Shown one piece after another: positions 33,350 to 59,202 of a stretch of DNA of 64,000 nt. The first letter of the stretch is position 1. Every line of letters begins with the position of its first letter. This DNA is from Brevibacillus sp. (lineage in GTDB: Bacteria; Bacillota; Bacilli; Brevibacillales; Brevibacillaceae): assembly GCA_017656235.1 (NCBI GenBank), contig JACDOF010000011.1:1-64000 (forward strand), given 5' to 3'. The position numbers were made by a program, and so were the translations under genes. The notes beneath the pieces were generated by a model that had not been told where the DNA came from, did no database searches, and saw nothing but the letters and a program-made list of their open reading frames with translations.

Positions 33350-33618
33350 ATAAGAGAAAAGAAAATCGAGAAAGCGTGGACGAGAAAAAGTACTCCGCAT
33401 TTTGTCTGGTGTAGAGAGTCGGTGGTGGGTGCAAACCGATCCGGCGGGCGGAGGAATCCATCTCTGAGCGGTGAGGGAAAGAACTTCACCCGGCAACGTG
33501 CCGTTAACGCGAGAAGAGGGCAGACGGTGCATGCTCTGACGTGCAGGTGAATCGTCTGTCAAGAAGGGTGGCAACGCGGGTTCTCACACTCGTCCCTTGC
33601 GAGGGATGAGTGTTTTTT
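33350..33618 (+). ncRNA. T-box riboswitch controlling serS
   Basis: The leader contains the conserved T-box sequence AAGGGTGGCAACGCGGG near 33564-33580. It is followed by a terminator: CACTCGTCCCT (33587-33597) pairs with AGGGATGAGTG (33602-33612) and then T6. In Stem I, AGAGAG pairs with TCTCT, leaving the specifier loop GAATCCAT. The specifier codon is therefore TCC (33457-33459), serine, matching the downstream gene. Uncharged tRNA-Ser would favour antitermination. Confidence 0.95.
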
Positions 33619-45832: not shown

Positions 45833-46100
45833 GCCGTGCTAGACGGGGAGGTTGCGGTGCCCTGTAACCTGCAATCCGCAATAGCAGGGTTGAATTCCTG
45901 TACGAGGCCGTGTCATGTGAGGCTGCCTTATGCGGAGCGGTGCTGATGCTTGGGTCCTGCGCAACGTGAACCCATGAACCTGGTCAGGTCCGGAAGGAAG
46001 CAGCCATAAGTGGAACTTCGCGTGTGCCGCAGAATCGCCTGGGCGGAGCCGAGCCCATGAGTAACGCTTGGATGGCACGTGTCGAATACAGGTGCACGGC
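45833..46100 (+). ncRNA. scr: Signal recognition particle RNA (large, Bacillus-type scRNA)
   Basis: About 268 nt, closed by GCCGTGC (45833-45839) with GCACGGC (46094-46100). It contains the Alu-like 5' domain with GGGGAGGTTGCGGTGCCCTG and the universal SRP apical loop GGTCAGGTCCGGAAGGAAGC (about 45983-46002). The large form with an Alu domain is typical of Bacillales, and the site between tadA and dnaX is the B. subtilis position. It scaffolds Ffh for co-translational targeting. Confidence 0.97.
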
Positions 46101-53155: not shown

Positions 53156-53671
53156 TCAGCCGTCGGTTTGCAGAAAGGCAAGGCTGTTGCGTTCGTACCG
53201 TACGCGGCAGTGATGGGGCTGGCGATACGAAAGAACCAGGCCGAAAAGTCGTGGTATGGCGAAGACAACCGCGCCGGCCGCCAGTGTAACCCCGTAGGAA
53301 AATGGGAGCCAGGCAAACAAGAACAAAGAGATGAACAGGCTCCCCAGACTAACCGTCCACTCGGCCCGGCGGAAAAACGTGAGGGAGACGGGGTAGAGCG
53401 TCCCCGCTCCCCACCAGACCGAAAAAAGGCCGTCAGGTGTCGTCTTTACCTGTTCTGATGCGGTGTAGACGTAAAAACGGAACAGCAAGTGGTGGATGAT
53501 CGGCAGGACAGCCAGAATGGACAGCGAGGTCAGCAATTGCCATGATTTCCCGGACGGCAGGGCGGAGAAGAGCAGCCCGGTCAGAAAGCAGCCAAGCTGC
53601 AGCAGGAAGCCGGGCCACCGCCAGCGAAATCGCAGCAGCAGCTTATAGCTGTAGATGGTCTGTTCTTTCAC
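53156..53671 (-). CDS. Unidentified membrane protein (171 aa)
   Basis: I do not recognise a family. The protein has a basic N-terminus with aromatic residues (YKLLLRFRWRW), then about four membrane segments (PGFLLQLGCFLTGLLFSAL, LLTSLSILAVLPIIHHLLF, SLGSLFISLFLFAWLPF, GVTLAAGAVVFAIPRLFGLVL). An ATG at 53671 has GGAGG upstream, supporting translation. It reads leftward, converging on bofA (stops 4 bp apart) and diverging from the epimerase operon. Confidence 0.7.
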   Translation of the reverse strand: MKEQTIYSYKLLLRFRWRWPGFLLQLGCFLTGLLFSALPSGKSWQLLTSLSILAVLPIIHHLLFRFYVYTASEQVKTTPDGLFSVWWGAGTLYPVSLTFFRRAEWTVSLGSLFISLFLFAWLPFSYGVTLAAGAVVFAIPRLFGLVLSYRQPHHCRVRYERNSLAFLQTDG

Positions 53672-53841
53672 GGGCAGACCTCCTTTTATTGGTTCGGTTC
53701 ATTGACAGAGGGATGGGGTTGTCATACACTATCTACGAGAATGATTCTCATCTTCGTTTAGCATGGTCCATCCAGATTCTCTACCAAATCTGTACTCAAT
53801 TATACGACCTGTTTTGTATGTGGTACAAGGAGTTGGCCCTG

Positions 53842-54795
53842 TTGAGGAAAATCGTGGTAACCGGCGGAGCGGGCTTTATCGGCTGTCATCTCTGCCGTTC
53901 GCTGGCTCGATCAGGTCTGAGCGATGAAGTGATTATCGTAGATTCGCTCCATCCCTATTACGATCCGGCCCTGAAGCGGAAACGGCTGGATGAATTAACC
54001 AAACTCCCTGGTATTTCTTATTATCCTGGCGACATCCTGGATGCAGAGCAGATGGACAAGCTTTTTCAAACCGAACGGCCTGAAGCCGTTATTCATCTGG
54101 CCGCCATTCCCGGTGTCCGCCGCTCACTGGCTGAACCGCTCCTCTACATCGATGCCGATGTGAAAGGGACGGTGCAGCTTTTGGAATTGTGCCGTCGCTA
54201 CAGCGTACCCCGATTTTTGTTCGCCTCGTCTTCATCGGTGTATGGAGAAAAAAAGGCAGATCGTCCGTTTCGCGAAGAGGAGGCGGGGTTAGCTGTGGTC
54301 TCTCCCTATGCAGCCAGCAAATTGGCTGCGGAAGTGTTCTTGAGAACGTACGCTGATCTGTACGGACTGAATGTCACCGTTCTGCGCTTTTTTACCGTCT
54401 ACGGACCTGAACAGAGGCCGGATATGGCCATCTCTCGCTTCGTATCACAGTTAACAAAAGGGGAGCCGCTCACGCTGTACGATCCGGGTTCGTTACGGGA
54501 TTATACCTATGTCGAGGACATCGTGCGGGGAATTGAGGCAGCCCTGATCCATTCGGCAGGCTGGCAGGTGTACAATCTGGGCAGCGGTCGGCCCACTTCC
54601 CTGGTTGAACTTGTTCGACTGCTGGAACAGGTGAGCGGGCAAAAGACCTCAACGGTTGTGCTGGGAAAGCAGCCGGGTGATGTAAGCGGCACATGGGCTG
54701 ACATCAGCGCCGCCCGTCACAGGTTGAATTGGGCACCAGTGGTATCGCTGGAGGAAGGACTTGCCCGCTTCTGGAAGTGGTGGCAGACGAAATGA
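53842..54795 (+). CDS. NAD-dependent sugar-nucleotide epimerase (UDP-glucuronate 4-epimerase-like)
   Basis: A 317-residue extended-SDR enzyme. The NAD motif is TGGAGFIG (7-14), the catalytic motif SPYAASKLAAE (Tyr/Lys), with FASSSSVYGE before it. RFFTVYGPEQRPDMAISRF is the pattern typical of UDP-glucuronate epimerases. Exact substrate is not certain. The start is a TTG at 53842 with AAGGAG upstream. It heads a five-gene run; its stop overlaps the next ATG (ATGA). Confidence 0.88.
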   Translation: MRKIVVTGGAGFIGCHLCRSLARSGLSDEVIIVDSLHPYYDPALKRKRLDELTKLPGISYYPGDILDAEQMDKLFQTERPEAVIHLAAIPGVRRSLAEPLLYIDADVKGTVQLLELCRRYSVPRFLFASSSSVYGEKKADRPFREEEAGLAVVSPYAASKLAAEVFLRTYADLYGLNVTVLRFFTVYGPEQRPDMAISRFVSQLTKGEPLTLYDPGSLRDYTYVEDIVRGIEAALIHSAGWQVYNLGSGRPTSLVELVRLLEQVSGQKTSTVVLGKQPGDVSGTWADISAARHRLNWAPVVSLEEGLARFWKWWQTK

Positions 54796-55724
54796 AAAGG
54801 ATGCTCCTGGTGGCGGTTGGATGGGCGCTTGTTGTCGTCATGTTTTCCTGGACGATCGCCCATCTGGAGGTGGCGCCGCTCCTGACGTCCATCGGTGCGC
54901 TTGCCTCCGATTGGCCGCTCCTGATTCTGATGACCATCAGTTACGCCTTCGCCTTCTGGCTCCGCAGCTTCGGTTGGGCCTTGCTGATGGAACACCCAGA
55001 CATCAGCGTGTACAGGCTCTGGCTGTATCATCACATCGGTCTGTTTCTCAATCACGTCCTGCCGGTCAAAGCCGGGGAGTTGGCGCGTACGGCTCTTCTG
55101 CATGAAAGAGAAGGGATGAACTGGAGTACATCGCTGATTTCGGTGGCACTCAGCCGGTTTGTGGACATGGCCGGTCTGTTGACGATCGCCCTGATTGGCG
55201 GCGCCTGGCTGATTCCACCGCAAATGTACCGCCTGTTGGTGGAGCGGGCGGGGCTTTTTTTGCTTCTGACCCTGCTTGGAGCACCTGTTATTTTTCTTCT
55301 ATGTCGGAAGCTTGTGGGCCGGGCAGGTATCCATCACGTGAAGCCGCGCAGATGGTGGTGGGCCTACTTGCTCGTCACCATCGGCTGGATGATGGAGGCG
55401 GCGGTGCTTCTGGGTGTGGTTCATGCACTTGGCGGACAGCTTGACGCTGCACAGGCACTGGTTGTTCATGCCTTGACCATCGTCGGGCAGACGTTTCACG
55501 TTACGCCAGGTGGGGTGGGAACCTACGAAGCCGTCATGTCCACTTTGCTGGCACAGACAGCGGCTTTTCCGCTGGGGCTGGCACTGCAAGTGGCCATCCT
55601 CACGCACGTTTTCAAGTTTGTTTATTCGTTTGCACTCGGTGCCTGGGCAGCCTGGTCTTTGTCGCTTTCTCCGTTTGCCGTCTACCGGCGGGCGAGACAG
55701 CAAAGAAAGGAAGAAAAGGGATGA
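54792..55724 (+). CDS. YbhN-type flippase-like membrane protein (LPG synthase TM domain)
   Basis: A 310-residue protein with about eight membrane segments, matching the lysylphosphatidylglycerol synthetase TM-region/UPF0104 family. Conserved parts are LWLYHHIGLFLNHVLPVKAGELARTALL (family LP-GR-GE-R region), SVALSRFVDMAGL and TFHVTPGGVGTYEAVM. Relatives move or hold lipid-linked molecules. The catalytic aminoacyl-transfer domain of MprF is absent. Start and stop both overlap neighbours by 4 bp. Confidence 0.87.
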   Translation: MKRMLLVAVGWALVVVMFSWTIAHLEVAPLLTSIGALASDWPLLILMTISYAFAFWLRSFGWALLMEHPDISVYRLWLYHHIGLFLNHVLPVKAGELARTALLHEREGMNWSTSLISVALSRFVDMAGLLTIALIGGAWLIPPQMYRLLVERAGLFLLLTLLGAPVIFLLCRKLVGRAGIHHVKPRRWWWAYLLVTIGWMMEAAVLLGVVHALGGQLDAAQALVVHALTIVGQTFHVTPGGVGTYEAVMSTLLAQTAAFPLGLALQVAILTHVFKFVYSFALGAWAAWSLSLSPFAVYRRARQQRKEEKG

Positions 55725-57235
55725 AAAAAGCGTCCAAACTGGAAAAAGCAGCGGCACGTTGTTGGAACGTGCTCAATGAGGGAAAACCGTTCACCCCCGT
55801 TTTTGTACTGGGGATGTTTGCCTTGTATCATATCTCCCTGTGGGATCAGGGCGCGTTCTGGGTTAACTTGCTGCTCACCCTGTTCGTGGTGCTGCCGGTG
55901 TTCGCGATTTGGTTTCATTACGATTATCCGCTTCATTTGCGCTGGTTTTTGTGGCTGCCGTTTGCGGTCGCTTGCCGACTGTGGTATCAGCCGGAAGACT
56001 GGTCGCTGTTTGCCCTTGCCATCGCGGCCTACTTCTTTTTCACCGTCATTTTGTGGGGCACAATCTATTACCATTTGCGGATTGGCACCAGCTTGTTAAA
56101 TTTTACCCGCTTTTGGAAGCTGGTACTGAAAAACAGTGATTCCACCAGCGGCAACGCCCAAGAGCAGCTGCCCAAGGTACTGACGCTGCTGTTGGTGATG
56201 GAAACGGCTTACCGGTCCTTGGGCGAACAACTGACCGGGTTTGCGCTTCCGTACCTGCTGTTTGCCGCGGGGCTGTTCGTGTACAGCTACGTGATTCACC
56301 GGCTGCTGTTTACCTGGAAACCCAAAGAGATCGCTGCCTATACAACCGATCCAAAGCCGGATGGAGCGCGGGCGGATAAAGTGTACGTGATCGTGATTGA
56401 TGGCTGCAACAAGGAGCGGCTGGCTGCGGCAGAGACCCCGTTTCTTGACAGATTGAGGGCCGATGGAACCGAGTATCTGACGATGGAGACGGTCTATCCT
56501 GCGCGGACGGTTGTCTGCTTTTCCTCCATGTTTACCGGCACCTATCCACGTGAACACGGGATCACCAGCAACATGGTGTACAAACAGGGGATCAGGACGG
56601 AAAGCATTTTCGACAGCCTGCGCAAAGTGGGGAAAACCGGTGTGATGTTGGCTGTAGCTCACCTGGTCGATGCCTTTGGACGGGATGTGGAGACGTTTAC
56701 CGCTGTGATGAAAAACGATGTGGTCGACCGAAAGATCTTGGAGCGGGCCAAGCAGATTGTCGAGGAACAGGATCCTGACCTGTTGATTGTGCAGCTGATC
56801 AGTACGGATCAAACCGGGCACAGCAGGGGCGTGTATTACGACGAGTACCTGCAGAAGATCGCCGAAGCGGATGCGCTGATTGCCGGGTTTTACGAATGGT
56901 TGGAAGCGAGAGGGAAGCTGCACAACGCTGCCCTGATCGTGTGTGCCGATCACGGACAGTCAGACGGGATCGGCGGACACGGCCACCTGGATGAAGGGGA
57001 GCGGTTCGTGCCGTTTATCATGCACGGTCCGATGATCAAACGGGGGCTGCGGGTAAAAGAGCATCGTTCGCTCGTCTCTGTCGCCCCAACGATCAGCTGG
57101 CTGATGGGAGCGCCTTATCCCGCATGTTCGCGTGGACCTGTGCTGATGGAAGCGATGACGTCGGAGAGAGTGCAGATGGGAGAGGAACGAAATGGGACAA
57201 AAGCTGCTGTATATCGTCATTCCGGCCCGCAATGA
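55721..57235 (+). CDS. Membrane-anchored alkaline-phosphatase-superfamily phosphodiesterase
   Basis: A 504-residue protein with about five N-terminal membrane segments (26-66, 73-115, 172-196). A C-terminal type I phosphodiesterase/nucleotide pyrophosphatase domain starts near 220. Metal/catalytic residues are visible: Asp227 (VIVIDGCN), Thr263 as likely nucleophile (YPARTVVCFSSMFTGTYPREHG), the STDQTGH motif, ADHGQSDG and GHGH. The active site probably faces outward. It overlaps both neighbours. Substrate unknown: a glycolipid or phosphodiester headgroup is plausible. Confidence 0.87.
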   Translation: MKKASKLEKAAARCWNVLNEGKPFTPVFVLGMFALYHISLWDQGAFWVNLLLTLFVVLPVFAIWFHYDYPLHLRWFLWLPFAVACRLWYQPEDWSLFALAIAAYFFFTVILWGTIYYHLRIGTSLLNFTRFWKLVLKNSDSTSGNAQEQLPKVLTLLLVMETAYRSLGEQLTGFALPYLLFAAGLFVYSYVIHRLLFTWKPKEIAAYTTDPKPDGARADKVYVIVIDGCNKERLAAAETPFLDRLRADGTEYLTMETVYPARTVVCFSSMFTGTYPREHGITSNMVYKQGIRTESIFDSLRKVGKTGVMLAVAHLVDAFGRDVETFTAVMKNDVVDRKILERAKQIVEEQDPDLLIVQLISTDQTGHSRGVYYDEYLQKIAEADALIAGFYEWLEARGKLHNAALIVCADHGQSDGIGGHGHLDEGERFVPFIMHGPMIKRGLRVKEHRSLVSVAPTISWLMGAPYPACSRGPVLMEAMTSERVQMGEERNGTKAAVYRHSGPQ

Positions 57236-57917
57236 ACAGGATGCGATCGGGAGTGTGATCAGCAGGATTCCGCGCCGCTTTCATCCGGATGTAGACGTGA
57301 AGGTGCTGGTCGTAGATGACGGATCGACCGATCGCACAGTGGAGGTGGCGCTGGCAAGTGGTGCAGACGAAATCTACACCATGCCGGTTCATAACGGGCT
57401 GGGTGCCGCCGTTCGGGATGGCCTGAAACAGGCGTACCGGCGCGGCGCCGATTACGCTGTCATGATTGATGCTGACAATGAGTACCCGCCTGAGCAGATT
57501 CCCGATCTGGTGGAACCGCTTCTTTTAGATCAGGCTGATTATGTAATGGGCTCCCGTTTTATGGGAAAGATTAAAGGGATGAAGTGGCACCGCCGCATCG
57601 GCAATTACCTGTTTACGGCTCTTCAGATGATCTTGCTCCGCCGCTGGATATACGACGGACAATCGGGGATGCGCGCGTTCAACCGTGCCGCACTGGCTGA
57701 TCTGGAAATCATTCACGATTACAATTACGCGCAGGTAATGACGCTCAATCTGGTGCGCAAAGGCTACCGTATGCTGGAAGTACCGATCCGCTACCAAGTG
57801 AGAACCACTGGCAGGTCGTTTATCCGCTTTATTCCTTACATGACCCATGTGATTCCGGCAATATACCAGGAGATGAGACGGTCTCCGCGGTCCAACAGGC
57901 AGACATCAGGCAGTTAA
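57192..57917 (+). CDS. Family 2 glycosyltransferase (DPM1-like)
   Basis: A 241-residue GT-A enzyme resembling dolichol/polyprenyl-phosphate mannosyltransferases. It has LYIVIPARNEQDAIGSVI, VLVVDDGSTDRTVEVA (first Asp pair), GLGAAVRDGLKQAYRRGADYAVMIDADNEYPPEQIPDL (DxD) and GSRFMGKIKGMKWHRRIGNYLFT. QSGMRAFNRAAL is also typical. There is no C-terminal membrane pair, so the lipid contact may be peripheral. It overlaps the phosphodiesterase gene by 44 bp. Confidence 0.9.
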   Translation: MGQKLLYIVIPARNEQDAIGSVISRIPRRFHPDVDVKVLVVDDGSTDRTVEVALASGADEIYTMPVHNGLGAAVRDGLKQAYRRGADYAVMIDADNEYPPEQIPDLVEPLLLDQADYVMGSRFMGKIKGMKWHRRIGNYLFTALQMILLRRWIYDGQSGMRAFNRAALADLEIIHDYNYAQVMTLNLVRKGYRMLEVPIRYQVRTTGRSFIRFIPYMTHVIPAIYQEMRRSPRSNRQTSGS

Positions 57918-57935
57918 AAGGAGGGATGACGGCCC

Positions 57936-58985
57936 GTGCTTGCGGATGAGCTTCCTCTGCAGTTCATTCCAAGAGAAAATCCGGCCCGGGATAGTCAGCG
58001 TGAGCAGCTGCTTCAGATGGGGTTGTTCTGCGCGGCAGATGATCGGAATGATATGGCTATGGGCCTGTTGATAGACGGACCGGCCGAACTGACTGACGTC
58101 ACCAGGGAGGCTGAGCACCTGGCTGAACACAGGCCTTCCGCTGATCTGCCGCTGCTTTTGCTCGTCTGCGGCCACAGGCTTCCCTTTGGCTATGTTGATC
58201 AATTGCTGGGGAGTGTCGGTTTTCTGCCGGTCGAGGCGGTTCGGCTGGTTGTGTTGGCGAGCGGCGAGCGGGCCGTACTGGGGGCCAAACCGGGAACGGT
58301 CTGGCTTAACCGGCTGCGCAAACGGTTGGCAGACTGCGGCGTCCTCTCGCTGGTCTGCCGCCCGGTTGAAGCGGAAGAGGTATCCCGTGCGCTCATGCAG
58401 CTGCTGGAACTGAAACAGCAGTTTTTCTATCATTTGGCTGAGCACTGTGACCGCATCGGTGCCTGTTTTGAGAGTGTGGCGCAAGGCATCGGCATGGACA
58501 GTCGTGTCGGACAGGGGTGGCTGCTGGACGCGCCGTCTCGCTCCAGCCAGTTTTTGGTGCGAGTGGATCGCTGGTTGACGCGCCAACTGCAGGAAGTGAT
58601 GAAAAACACGAACATCGATCAGGTGGCAATCTGGGGGAATCCGTCACCTTATCACCGATTGACAGCGAGACTGGAAGGGATGAAACAGGTGCGGATCAGT
58701 TTGCCGGGCCGGACAGGAAACCCGAACATTTCCGCCAGCGGCTGGCGATGGCTGACTGATCCGTTGGAAGCTCTTGAACAGGCTGATCTGCTGGTTATTC
58801 TGGAAGCGGATGCGGCTGTCTGCGAGTTGGACCTGGGAGAGCTGGTCCGGCGCATGAAGCAGCCGATTGTACTGGATACCCGGGCCTGTTACCCCCTTTC
58901 GGAAGCAGAGGCGTACCAACTGATGTACCGTACGTTTGGGCAGTACACGAACGTTTGGAATGCATTTGCTTATAATAGGATATAA
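57936..58985 (+). CDS. Degenerate UDP-glucose dehydrogenase-like protein (likely pseudoenzyme)
   Basis: A 349-residue protein with no clear family at first sight. Residues about 145-205 (VEAEEVSRALMQLL then HLAEHCDRIGACFESVAQGIGMDSRVGQ) align by eye with the central dimerisation domain of UDP-glucose dehydrogenase. About 225-325 (VAIWGNPSP, DPLEALEQADLLVILEAD, QPIVLDTRACY) align with its C-terminal domain. Missing are the N-terminal GxGxxG, the active-site lysine of AEliKYa and the GGSCFPKD cysteine. GTG 57936 follows GGAGG. It ends the operon. Confidence 0.65.
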   Translation: MLADELPLQFIPRENPARDSQREQLLQMGLFCAADDRNDMAMGLLIDGPAELTDVTREAEHLAEHRPSADLPLLLLVCGHRLPFGYVDQLLGSVGFLPVEAVRLVVLASGERAVLGAKPGTVWLNRLRKRLADCGVLSLVCRPVEAEEVSRALMQLLELKQQFFYHLAEHCDRIGACFESVAQGIGMDSRVGQGWLLDAPSRSSQFLVRVDRWLTRQLQEVMKNTNIDQVAIWGNPSPYHRLTARLEGMKQVRISLPGRTGNPNISASGWRWLTDPLEALEQADLLVILEADAAVCELDLGELVRRMKQPIVLDTRACYPLSEAEAYQLMYRTFGQYTNVWNAFAYNRI

Positions 58986-59019: not shown

Positions 59020-59202
59020 ATGGATCGATCAAGTCGGCGCTGTATCGTCTGCGGAGAAGAACGGGCTGTTGGCATCGCCATCTGGGATCAGTTCATATGT
59101 CATCCATGTGAACAGGAAATGGTCAACACAGACGTTCTGGATGAGAAGTACCCCTTCTTCATCAAACAAATGCGCCAAATCTGGCTAAAACAGAATGCCT
59201 GA
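59020..59202 (+). CDS. csfB: Anti-sigma-G factor Gin (CsfB)
   Basis: A 60-residue zinc-binding inhibitor of sigma-G (and sigma-E) that delays late forespore transcription. The four-cysteine pattern CIVCGEE...FICHPCEQEMV is complete, followed by the family tail TDVLDEKYPFFIKQMRQIWLK. The ATG at 59020 is preceded by GGAAGGGTGG; a TTG one codon earlier is possible. In B. subtilis csfB also lies between bofA and the tmk operon. Confidence 0.93.
   Translation: MDRSSRRCIVCGEERAVGIAIWDQFICHPCEQEMVNTDVLDEKYPFFIKQMRQIWLKQNA

Follow-up and report, generated by a model that had tools for sequence, protein, structure and literature searches.

Introduction

Iron uptake in Gram-positive bacteria is usually described in terms of siderophores, haem, and EfeUOB/FTR1. 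In another field, that of lipid-linked sugars, the ArnC-ArnT pathway of L-Ara4N and the RgtE-RgtABCD pathway for galacturonic acid on rhizobial lipopolysaccharide share a uronate supply by UDP-glucose dehydrogenase (UGD) or epimerase, a family 2 glycosyltransferase (GT2) as polyprenyl-phosphate sugar synthase, and an ArnT/PMT-like glycosyltransferase of the GT-C type (GT-C). The subject of this work is a run of five genes in a stretch of 64,000 nucleotides from Brevibacillus sp. (assembly GCA_017656235.1, contig JACDOF010000011.1, positions 1 to 64,000; hereafter the window), which code for a nucleotide-sugar epimerase (gene 1), a YbhN-like membrane protein (gene 2), a membrane-anchored phosphodiesterase (PDE; gene 3), a GT2 protein (gene 4), and a UGD-like protein (gene 5). 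By comparative evidence genes 1–4 are likely to be that half of an iron-acquisition system, repressed by Fur and equipped with its own extracytoplasmic glycosylation branch, which makes the sugar donor. No description of this gene combination appeared among the papers listed by searches of the open-licence PMC literature.

Multi-component transmembrane glycosylation systems, such as CsbB/GtcA/YfhO and GtlA/GtcA/GtlB, are described in the portion of PMC8035078 used here. As to iron, the excerpts of PMC3759009 and PMC7676907 present FEA1 of Chlamydomonas as a secreted protein whose induction in iron deficiency goes together with that of the FTR1 permease, and an algal Fea1 as a protein that was purified with ferric iron.

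The Conserved Cluster Outside the Order

Genomes were searched in six frames, which recovered more than a wide scan with back-translated peptides, where two relatives only were found. At 1e-15 the gene 3 PDE was detected in 60 of 398 Bacilli genomes, 54 of them with at least 53% identity; the low-identity matches of G029, G030, G031, G039, G171, and G264 were set aside from the co-occurrence table, leaving 54 of 60, and G033 lies outside this class sample. The PDE carriers considered below are 55 genomes from 29 genera. The near-constant companion of the PDE is a secreted protein of about 250 amino acids with a C-terminal membrane anchor (the anchored "YSYG" protein, here SEC), for which the Pfam search gave no match. 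Both proteins occur in 54 of the 398 genomes, the PDE alone in none, SEC alone in one, and neither in 343, and in the sole SEC-only genome (G116) the contig continues for no more than 314 bp beyond SEC.

The neighbourhood was read in 41 loci outside the order Brevibacillales, namely, in 40 of the 50 genomes from other orders with a PDE of at least 53% identity (the 10 omitted all belong to genus g48) and in G171 (39%; locus L150). The usual cluster contains genes for a lipoprotein, epimerase, predicted flippase, PDE, GT2, SEC, FTR1, and GT-C, with some reordering between loci. The PDE is present in 41 loci, GT2 and the predicted GT-C in 40 each, SEC in 38, FTR1 in 36, the lipoprotein in 33, the epimerase in 30, the flippase in 28, and UGD in 8, and the epimerase was not found in 6 of the 8 stretches that hold UGD. 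The FTR1 of locus L116 belongs to PF03239 (2e-44). The GT-C proteins give weak PMT_2 or TMEM260-like matches and have an HFPGYP motif in all 45 sequences, and of 26 lipoproteins compared with NCBI's model for FEA1-related lipoproteins 25 match it, at best with an E-value of 4.5e-13. One lipoprotein and the SEC profile, when searched against PDB sequences, yielded no useful match, and among the cluster proteins scanned there was no Pfam or NCBIfam match to EfeO (M75) or EfeB (DyP), nor was a FOX1-like ferroxidase recognised.

In the phylum sample the PDE was found at 1e-20 in 13 of 398 genomes, 8 of which lie outside the class, including a weak match of 27% identity in G449. The other 7 beyond the class were all fetched; four of them belong to genus g154 (see below), and three (loci L181–L183) combine PDE, GT2, flippase, SEC, lipoprotein, and GT-C genes with importer genes; Pfam identifies a solute-binding protein in L181 and L182 and an ABC permease and ATPase in L182, and no FTR1 was recognised in the three stretches, the search having covered the stretches and not whole genomes. 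The importer open reading frames (ORFs) of L183 resemble those of L182 in size and start; of these two loci, it was the three L182 proteins that were run against Pfam.

Fur-Type Boxes and the Second Half of the System

Candidate operators were scored against the 7-1-7 Fur consensus. Upstream of the first cluster gene a box with at most 2 mismatches was present in 33 of 48 loci and one with at most 3 in 44 of 48, where shuffling expects 0.26 and 2.43, respectively. The four misses consist of three loci in which UGD was taken as the first gene (the box precedes the lipoprotein gene) and of the window, whose mechanical ORF begins 300 bp too early. Of 124 ORFs taken from outside the clusters as controls, none had a site within 2 mismatches and 3 had one within 3; in this test each cluster is represented by the best of several genes and each control by a single ORF, so that the first-gene value is the fair comparison. 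In a further count Fur ranked first in 49 of 49 cases, a result that is biased because the sites had been picked by Fur score. L150, although one of the 41 loci counted above, was excluded from the Fur tests and from the counts of conserved residues, and the upstream region of L134 was too short for the first-gene test.

Within the order all 4 loci that have genes 2–4 show a box in the interval from orfX, the divergent gene ahead of gene 1, to gene 5, and a site was found in 1 of the 35 loci that lack them (L062, 3 mismatches). Three relatives with the operon (L068, L070, and L075) have TGAGAATGATTATCA, with 1 mismatch, in the interval that matches the window's box.

The remaining components are found in the window's genome on another contig (C2; L160, 9039–14513), where genes for SEC (372 amino acids), a FEA1-like protein with a Cu_amine_oxidN1 domain (501), FTR1 (309), and GT-C (570) stand side by side. 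The SEC start lies 23 bp from a Fur-type operator, TGATAATCATTATCA, with a perfect 7-1-7 match. All four genes were also found at a second site in G028. Across the 39 genomes of the order GT-C occurs in exactly five, those with a PDE of at least 59% identity, and a short FTR1 adjoins it in all five. We infer from the boxes that genes 1–4 and the C2 operon are probably both under Fur control.

Predicted Functions of Genes 1–4 and the Proposed Pathway

The best solved relatives of gene 1 include MoeE5 and the Bacillus cereus UDP-glucuronic acid 4-epimerase (6zl6 and others). Its residues Y156, K160, T185, and R192, the equivalents of the Tyr/Lys pair of short-chain dehydrogenases/reductases and of the carboxylate-binding Thr and Arg, are present in all 34 cluster epimerases; T185 is the equivalent of Thr178, presumably a carboxylate-binding residue. 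For Arg185 of UDP-glucuronic acid 4-epimerase, to which R192 corresponds, the part of PMC12338863 drawn on here reports that it holds the carboxylate of the product. Gene 1 is predicted to convert UDP-glucuronic acid (UDP-GlcA) to UDP-galacturonic acid (UDP-GalA), and the sugar would be a hexuronic acid because the uronate-type epimerase residues are invariant and UGD is encoded in 8 of the 41 stretches. Gene 4 is a GT2 protein without a membrane helix by hydropathy, and its best NCBIfam matches, AglJ and dolichyl-phosphate-hexose transferase, are all below cut-off.

In gene 3 the predicted catalytic and metal-binding residues are D227, T263, D363, H367, D410, H411, and H422. The NPP-type Thr nucleophile and six metal ligands are intact in 45 of 48 PDEs, the exceptions being three orphan copies of the order (L071–L073). 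The PDB sequence matches of the PDE are led by NPPs, with no LtaS among the 60 matches listed. An AlphaFold2 model of the PDE, for which three sequences were used, was of poor quality, with a mean pLDDT of 44.8, and was not used further.

Gene content and order, co-occurrence, Fur-type boxes, and intact active-site residues, all established by computation, are compatible with the following pathway. The chromosomal UGD would make UDP-GlcA, which gene 1 would epimerise to UDP-GalA, and gene 4 would move the uronic acid onto undecaprenyl phosphate. Gene 2, as a putative flippase working outward, would bring the lipid-phosphate sugar to the outer face, where the GT-C of C2 may hand the sugar on to an acceptor at the surface, in the simplest case SEC or the FEA1-related protein; a membrane glycolipid or a wall polymer would be the alternative acceptors. 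Gene 3, as a metal-dependent phosphodiesterase or phosphotransferase of the outer face, may trim or decorate this surface product. An acidic, metal-binding surface beside the FEA1-like protein, SEC, and FTR1 could then concentrate Fe(III) for import.

SEC has a Ser/Thr/Ala/Pro-rich linker of 79–146 residues before its membrane anchor in the four genomes of the split type (L160–L163), which, together with the weak PMT_2 and TMEM260-like matches of GT-C, would suit a PMT-like O-glycosyltransferase with the SEC linker as its substrate. Such O-glycosylation of SEC and nothing else is, nevertheless, rather doubtful, as the linker is only 20–23 residues long in the three other SECs measured and the phosphodiesterase would be left unexplained. 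The same linker difference, long in the split-type genomes and short in three others, is the reason why SEC as the glycan acceptor in the preferred pathway is given here as a guess.

Another explanation is that a general wall polymer or a lipid is remodelled under Fur control, with uronic acid being placed on teichoic acid or a glycolipid in iron starvation and the PDE acting in the turnover of lipoteichoic acid or of phospholipid headgroups; the iron importer would be co-regulated and have no product in common with the sugar genes. The combination of a GT-A glycosyltransferase, a flippase, and a GT-C is the architecture of wall-polymer glycosylation in the relevant portion of PMC8035078, and the intact NPP-type site of the PDE agrees with such a role. 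Against this, the near-perfect co-occurrence of PDE and SEC in the 398 genomes and the presence of FTR1 in 36 of 41 loci favour a shared product, and the 60 PDB matches listed for the PDE are led by NPPs and name no LtaS, so that this explanation seems unlikely.

Several observations weigh against the iron-acquisition pathway itself. The box of the window itself departs from the consensus at 3 positions, and sites this good occur five times in the 64-kb window. The second locus of G026 and of G033 contains SEC, FTR1, and GT-C, and the FEA1-like protein was not recognised in the fetched stretch. The lipoprotein scores 47.3 bits (L116) and 19.7 bits (window genome) with the FEA1 model, whose curated cut-off is 250, and the uptake role of FEA1 itself is hypothesised or suggested, not demonstrated, in the excerpts of PMC7676907 and PMC3759009. 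The short SEC linkers mentioned above belong here too. The epimerase is absent from 11 of 41 loci and the flippase from 13, and these two components are therefore not obligatory. FTR1 is missing from the locus in L106, L112, L113, L133, and L150; in the genomes of the first four it is located elsewhere, with a site of 1–2 mismatches within about 70 bp upstream. Finally, no cluster gene besides the PDE was recognised within 14 kb in the four g154 genomes, which speaks against universal linkage. In L184 and L186, both from g154, a Fur-type site with 2 mismatches lies just upstream of the PDE.

The preliminary description, which was made from the window alone, had proposed a five-gene operon for a surface glycoconjugate or glycolipid with a possible envelope role in sporulation. 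The first part stands in a qualified form: sugar supply, transfer to lipid, flipping, and a surface product fit the anatomy and the relatives of the genes, and a surface glycoconjugate is the likely product. The sporulation setting and the five-gene unit do not survive the comparison, as detailed below.

The Locus in the Window and in the Order

The five ORFs, their order, and their tight packing were correctly recognised in that description, and Pfam and NCBIfam matches agree with its family calls for genes 1–4 (Table 1). Gene 1 starts with the TTG at 53842, with AAGGAG upstream. The start of gene 2 is most likely the ATG at 54792, in a 4-bp ATGA overlap with gene 1, while the mechanical ORF begins with the TTG at 54729. 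Gene 3 overlaps gene 2 by 4 bp (ATGA), gene 4 overlaps gene 3 by 44 bp, and gene 5 begins 18 bp past the end of gene 4 with its own AAAGGAGGG. The run is bracketed by bofA (PF07441) and gin, and the hydrophobic, 171-residue orfX, located between bofA and gene 1, is conserved in 38 of the order's 39 loci. The window also carries a T-box leader (33368–33600) and a large SRP RNA (45834–46099), both ordinary features.

Table 1: Features of the locus in the window.
Feature	Position	Strand	Evidence
orfX, conserved flanking ORF, divergent	53156..53671	-	no Pfam match
Fur-box-like palindrome CGAGAATGATTCTCA	53736..53750	.	3 mismatches to TGATAATNATTATCA; ~90 bp upstream of gene 1
Gene 1, NDP-sugar 4-epimerase, UDP-glucuronate-4-epimerase type	53842..54795	+	Epimerase 9e-61
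Gene 2, YbhN/AglD-type (PF03706) membrane protein, predicted polyprenyl-phosphate sugar flippase	54792..55724	+	LPG_synthase_TM 3.6e-31
Gene 3, membrane-anchored type I phosphodiesterase (PDE; NPP/alkaline phosphatase superfamily)	55721..57235	+	Phosphodiest 8.5e-31
Gene 4, DPM1-like GT2, predicted polyprenyl-phosphate sugar synthase	57192..57917	+	Glycos_transf_2 4.4e-25
Gene 5, putative UGD-derived pseudoenzyme, order-wide gin neighbour	57936..58985	+	sub-cut-off UDPG_MGDP_dh matches
gin, flanking sporulation gene, outside the system	59020..59202	+	PF10764

The five genes are not conserved together. The interval from orfX to gene 5 contains the whole of genes 1–4 in 3 of the 39 genomes (the window genome, G026, and G033) and genes 2–4 in a further one (G028). 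Joint conservation of genes 1–4 extends far beyond the order, mostly in other surroundings. A PDE match at 1e-10 or better was obtained in 9 of the 39; that of G010 is weak, with 29% identity. The PDEs of G029–G031 are orphans, 40–41% identical, in which 3 of the 7 catalytic and metal residues are lost, the metal ligands of these copies (L071, L072, and L073) being changed from D to N, from D to Y, and from H to I or M. They are apparently a second pseudoenzyme at the bofA-gin locus. L045, L063, L067, and L076 retain fragments of gene 4 and L062 an entire solitary copy, and because of these remains the module of genes 1–4 was probably present in the ancestor of the order and lost repeatedly. 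In G003 only a remnant of gene 4 is found between bofA and gin and a cluster, with no flippase recognised, lies elsewhere (L081, G003:C1:3894000-3906000); its PDE groups with family f12 and is 77% identical to that of L139. Since the native site holds a remnant only and the PDE groups with f12, a foreign complete system has probably replaced the native split form by transfer.

The position between bofA and gin makes it tempting to regard the five genes as a pathway that builds a glycoconjugate of the spore envelope, and this reading, which rests on position alone, is corrected here. It can draw on the fact that outside the order the module lies beside gin in 4 of 41 loci (L106, L112, L113, and L133), and that Spo0A_C is present in 54 of the 55 PDE carriers and a SpoIVA match in 38. 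Since Spo0A_C is not discriminating, SpoIVA was used instead, and by this test the module is not restricted to spore-formers: the 17 carriers without a SpoIVA match all belong to genus g48, and all 17 sampled g48 genomes keep both PDE and SEC, the full cluster having been read in the 7 that were fetched. In 37 of the 41 stretches outside the order there is no gin, and bofA is found in 2 (L106 and L112); within the order the PDE is missing from 31 of 39 genomes although all 39 retain bofA and gin. Together with the Fur-type boxes at the clusters these facts make a sporulation role very improbable.

Gene 5 as an Apparent Pseudoenzyme

Gene 5 is present in all 39 genomes of the order, and gin directly follows it in all 39 neighbourhoods, with or without genes 1–4. 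Pfam recognises only the C-terminal and central UDPG_MGDP_dh models in it, both below cut-off (27.6 bits versus 30 and 13.8 versus 25.4). For the motif comparison 14 UGD ORFs were kept, while the ORFs picked up beside them and L102, which has no recognisable UGD frame, were dropped. The motifs KxTVPxG, E[MLI]IKY, GGxCxPKD, and FK...D.R are found in none of the 39 gene 5 proteins and in 13 or 14 of the 14 UGDs (GGxCxPKD in 13, E[MLI]IKY in 14), and the NAD motif GxGxxG in 1 of 39 versus 13 of 14; L106 is the UGD without GxGxxG and GGxCxPKD. As gene 5 has lost these motifs and occurs without genes 1–4, it is not the working UGD of the pathway, and the idea of five genes acting together has to be given up. 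An intact UGD is encoded elsewhere in the window's genome, on contig C1.

Residues G186, D188, R190, and G192 are kept in all 39 gene 5 proteins, and such invariance suggests a retained non-catalytic function. Two further features of the family (the window and L043–L080) are a new C-terminal motif, G[QE]x[TPA]N[VID], found in 39 of 39 gene 5 proteins versus 0 of 14 UGDs, and a Cys-rich D-x-C-x-C/S-[YF]-P segment, which occurs in many of the gene 5 proteins. In family f27 the slot beside gin is occupied by an intact UGD in L112 and by a UGD without the NAD, Cys, and FK...D.R motifs in L106. In a tree with 13 of the 39 gene 5 proteins, a branch with 97% SH-aLRT support separates these, together with L106 and L112, from the rest, on long branches. 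Gene 5 is presumably the former UGD of the module, which lost catalysis and was kept beside gin as a non-catalytic protein, and with the intact homologue of L112 and the apparently decaying one of L106 in the equivalent slot it offers a case of an enzyme turned into a pseudoenzyme.

A role for gene 5 as an active UDP-sugar enzyme of the pathway, with motifs that have diverged, could be argued from the preserved order of the UGD central and C-terminal domains and from its many invariant residues. The structure model is of moderate quality (mean pLDDT 64.7), and the 50 Foldseek matches shown for it are UDP-glucose dehydrogenases and their relatives, with low query-normalised TM-scores of 0.28–0.37; this result supports what was concluded from the sequence and no more. 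With four UGD motifs in none of 39 proteins and with the gene retained where genes 1–4 are absent, continued catalysis is hardly credible.

Comparison with Known Systems

Taken as a whole, the data allow us to propose, tentatively and as a possibility rather than a probability, a widespread and undescribed form of iron acquisition, in which a starvation-induced polyprenyl-phosphate hexuronate pathway would coat the partners of an FTR1 or ABC importer (the FEA1-like protein and SEC) with acidic sugar and so make a glycan-based collector of ferric iron on the Gram-positive surface, a dead UGD having been recruited as the order-wide companion of gin. If this is true, iron capture would gain a glycan step through a Fur-linked glycosylation machine tied to an importer, and functions could be assigned to genes now named only epimerase, flippase, alkaline phosphatase-like protein, and glycosyltransferase.

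Compared with the Arn and Rgt pathways, the predicted system has the same uronate supply, GT2 polyprenyl-phosphate sugar synthase, and ArnT/PMT-like GT-C, but it belongs to Gram-positive bacteria without lipid A, is linked to iron uptake, and has an extra phosphodiesterase. With EfeUOB/FTR1 uptake it shares an FTR1-family permease (PF03239), extracellular partner proteins, and a Fur-type box, and it differs by the FEA1-related protein, SEC, and the glycosylation module, with no EfeO/M75 or EfeB/DyP match in the scanned proteins. The Chlamydomonas FOX1/FTR1/FEA1 system, as far as it is covered by the excerpts cited above, likewise combines an FTR1 permease with FEA1-type proteins; unlike there, no FOX1-like ferroxidase is seen in the scanned proteins here, and the lipoprotein match to the FEA1 model is below the NCBI cut-off. 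A parallel in architecture is given by the transmembrane glycosylation systems, in which, according to the portion of PMC8035078 used, a GT-A at the cytosolic face makes the polyprenyl-phosphate sugar, a flippase turns it over, and a GT-C transfers the sugar outside, as would be the case here. Those systems, in the same portion of that source, use a GtrA or Wzx flippase, whereas the PF03706 (YbhN) protein found here would be a functional analogue at most; in the present system the predicted GT-A has no membrane helix by hydropathy, Fur-type boxes are present, and the partners are an iron importer, two surface proteins of the iron locus, and a phosphodiesterase.

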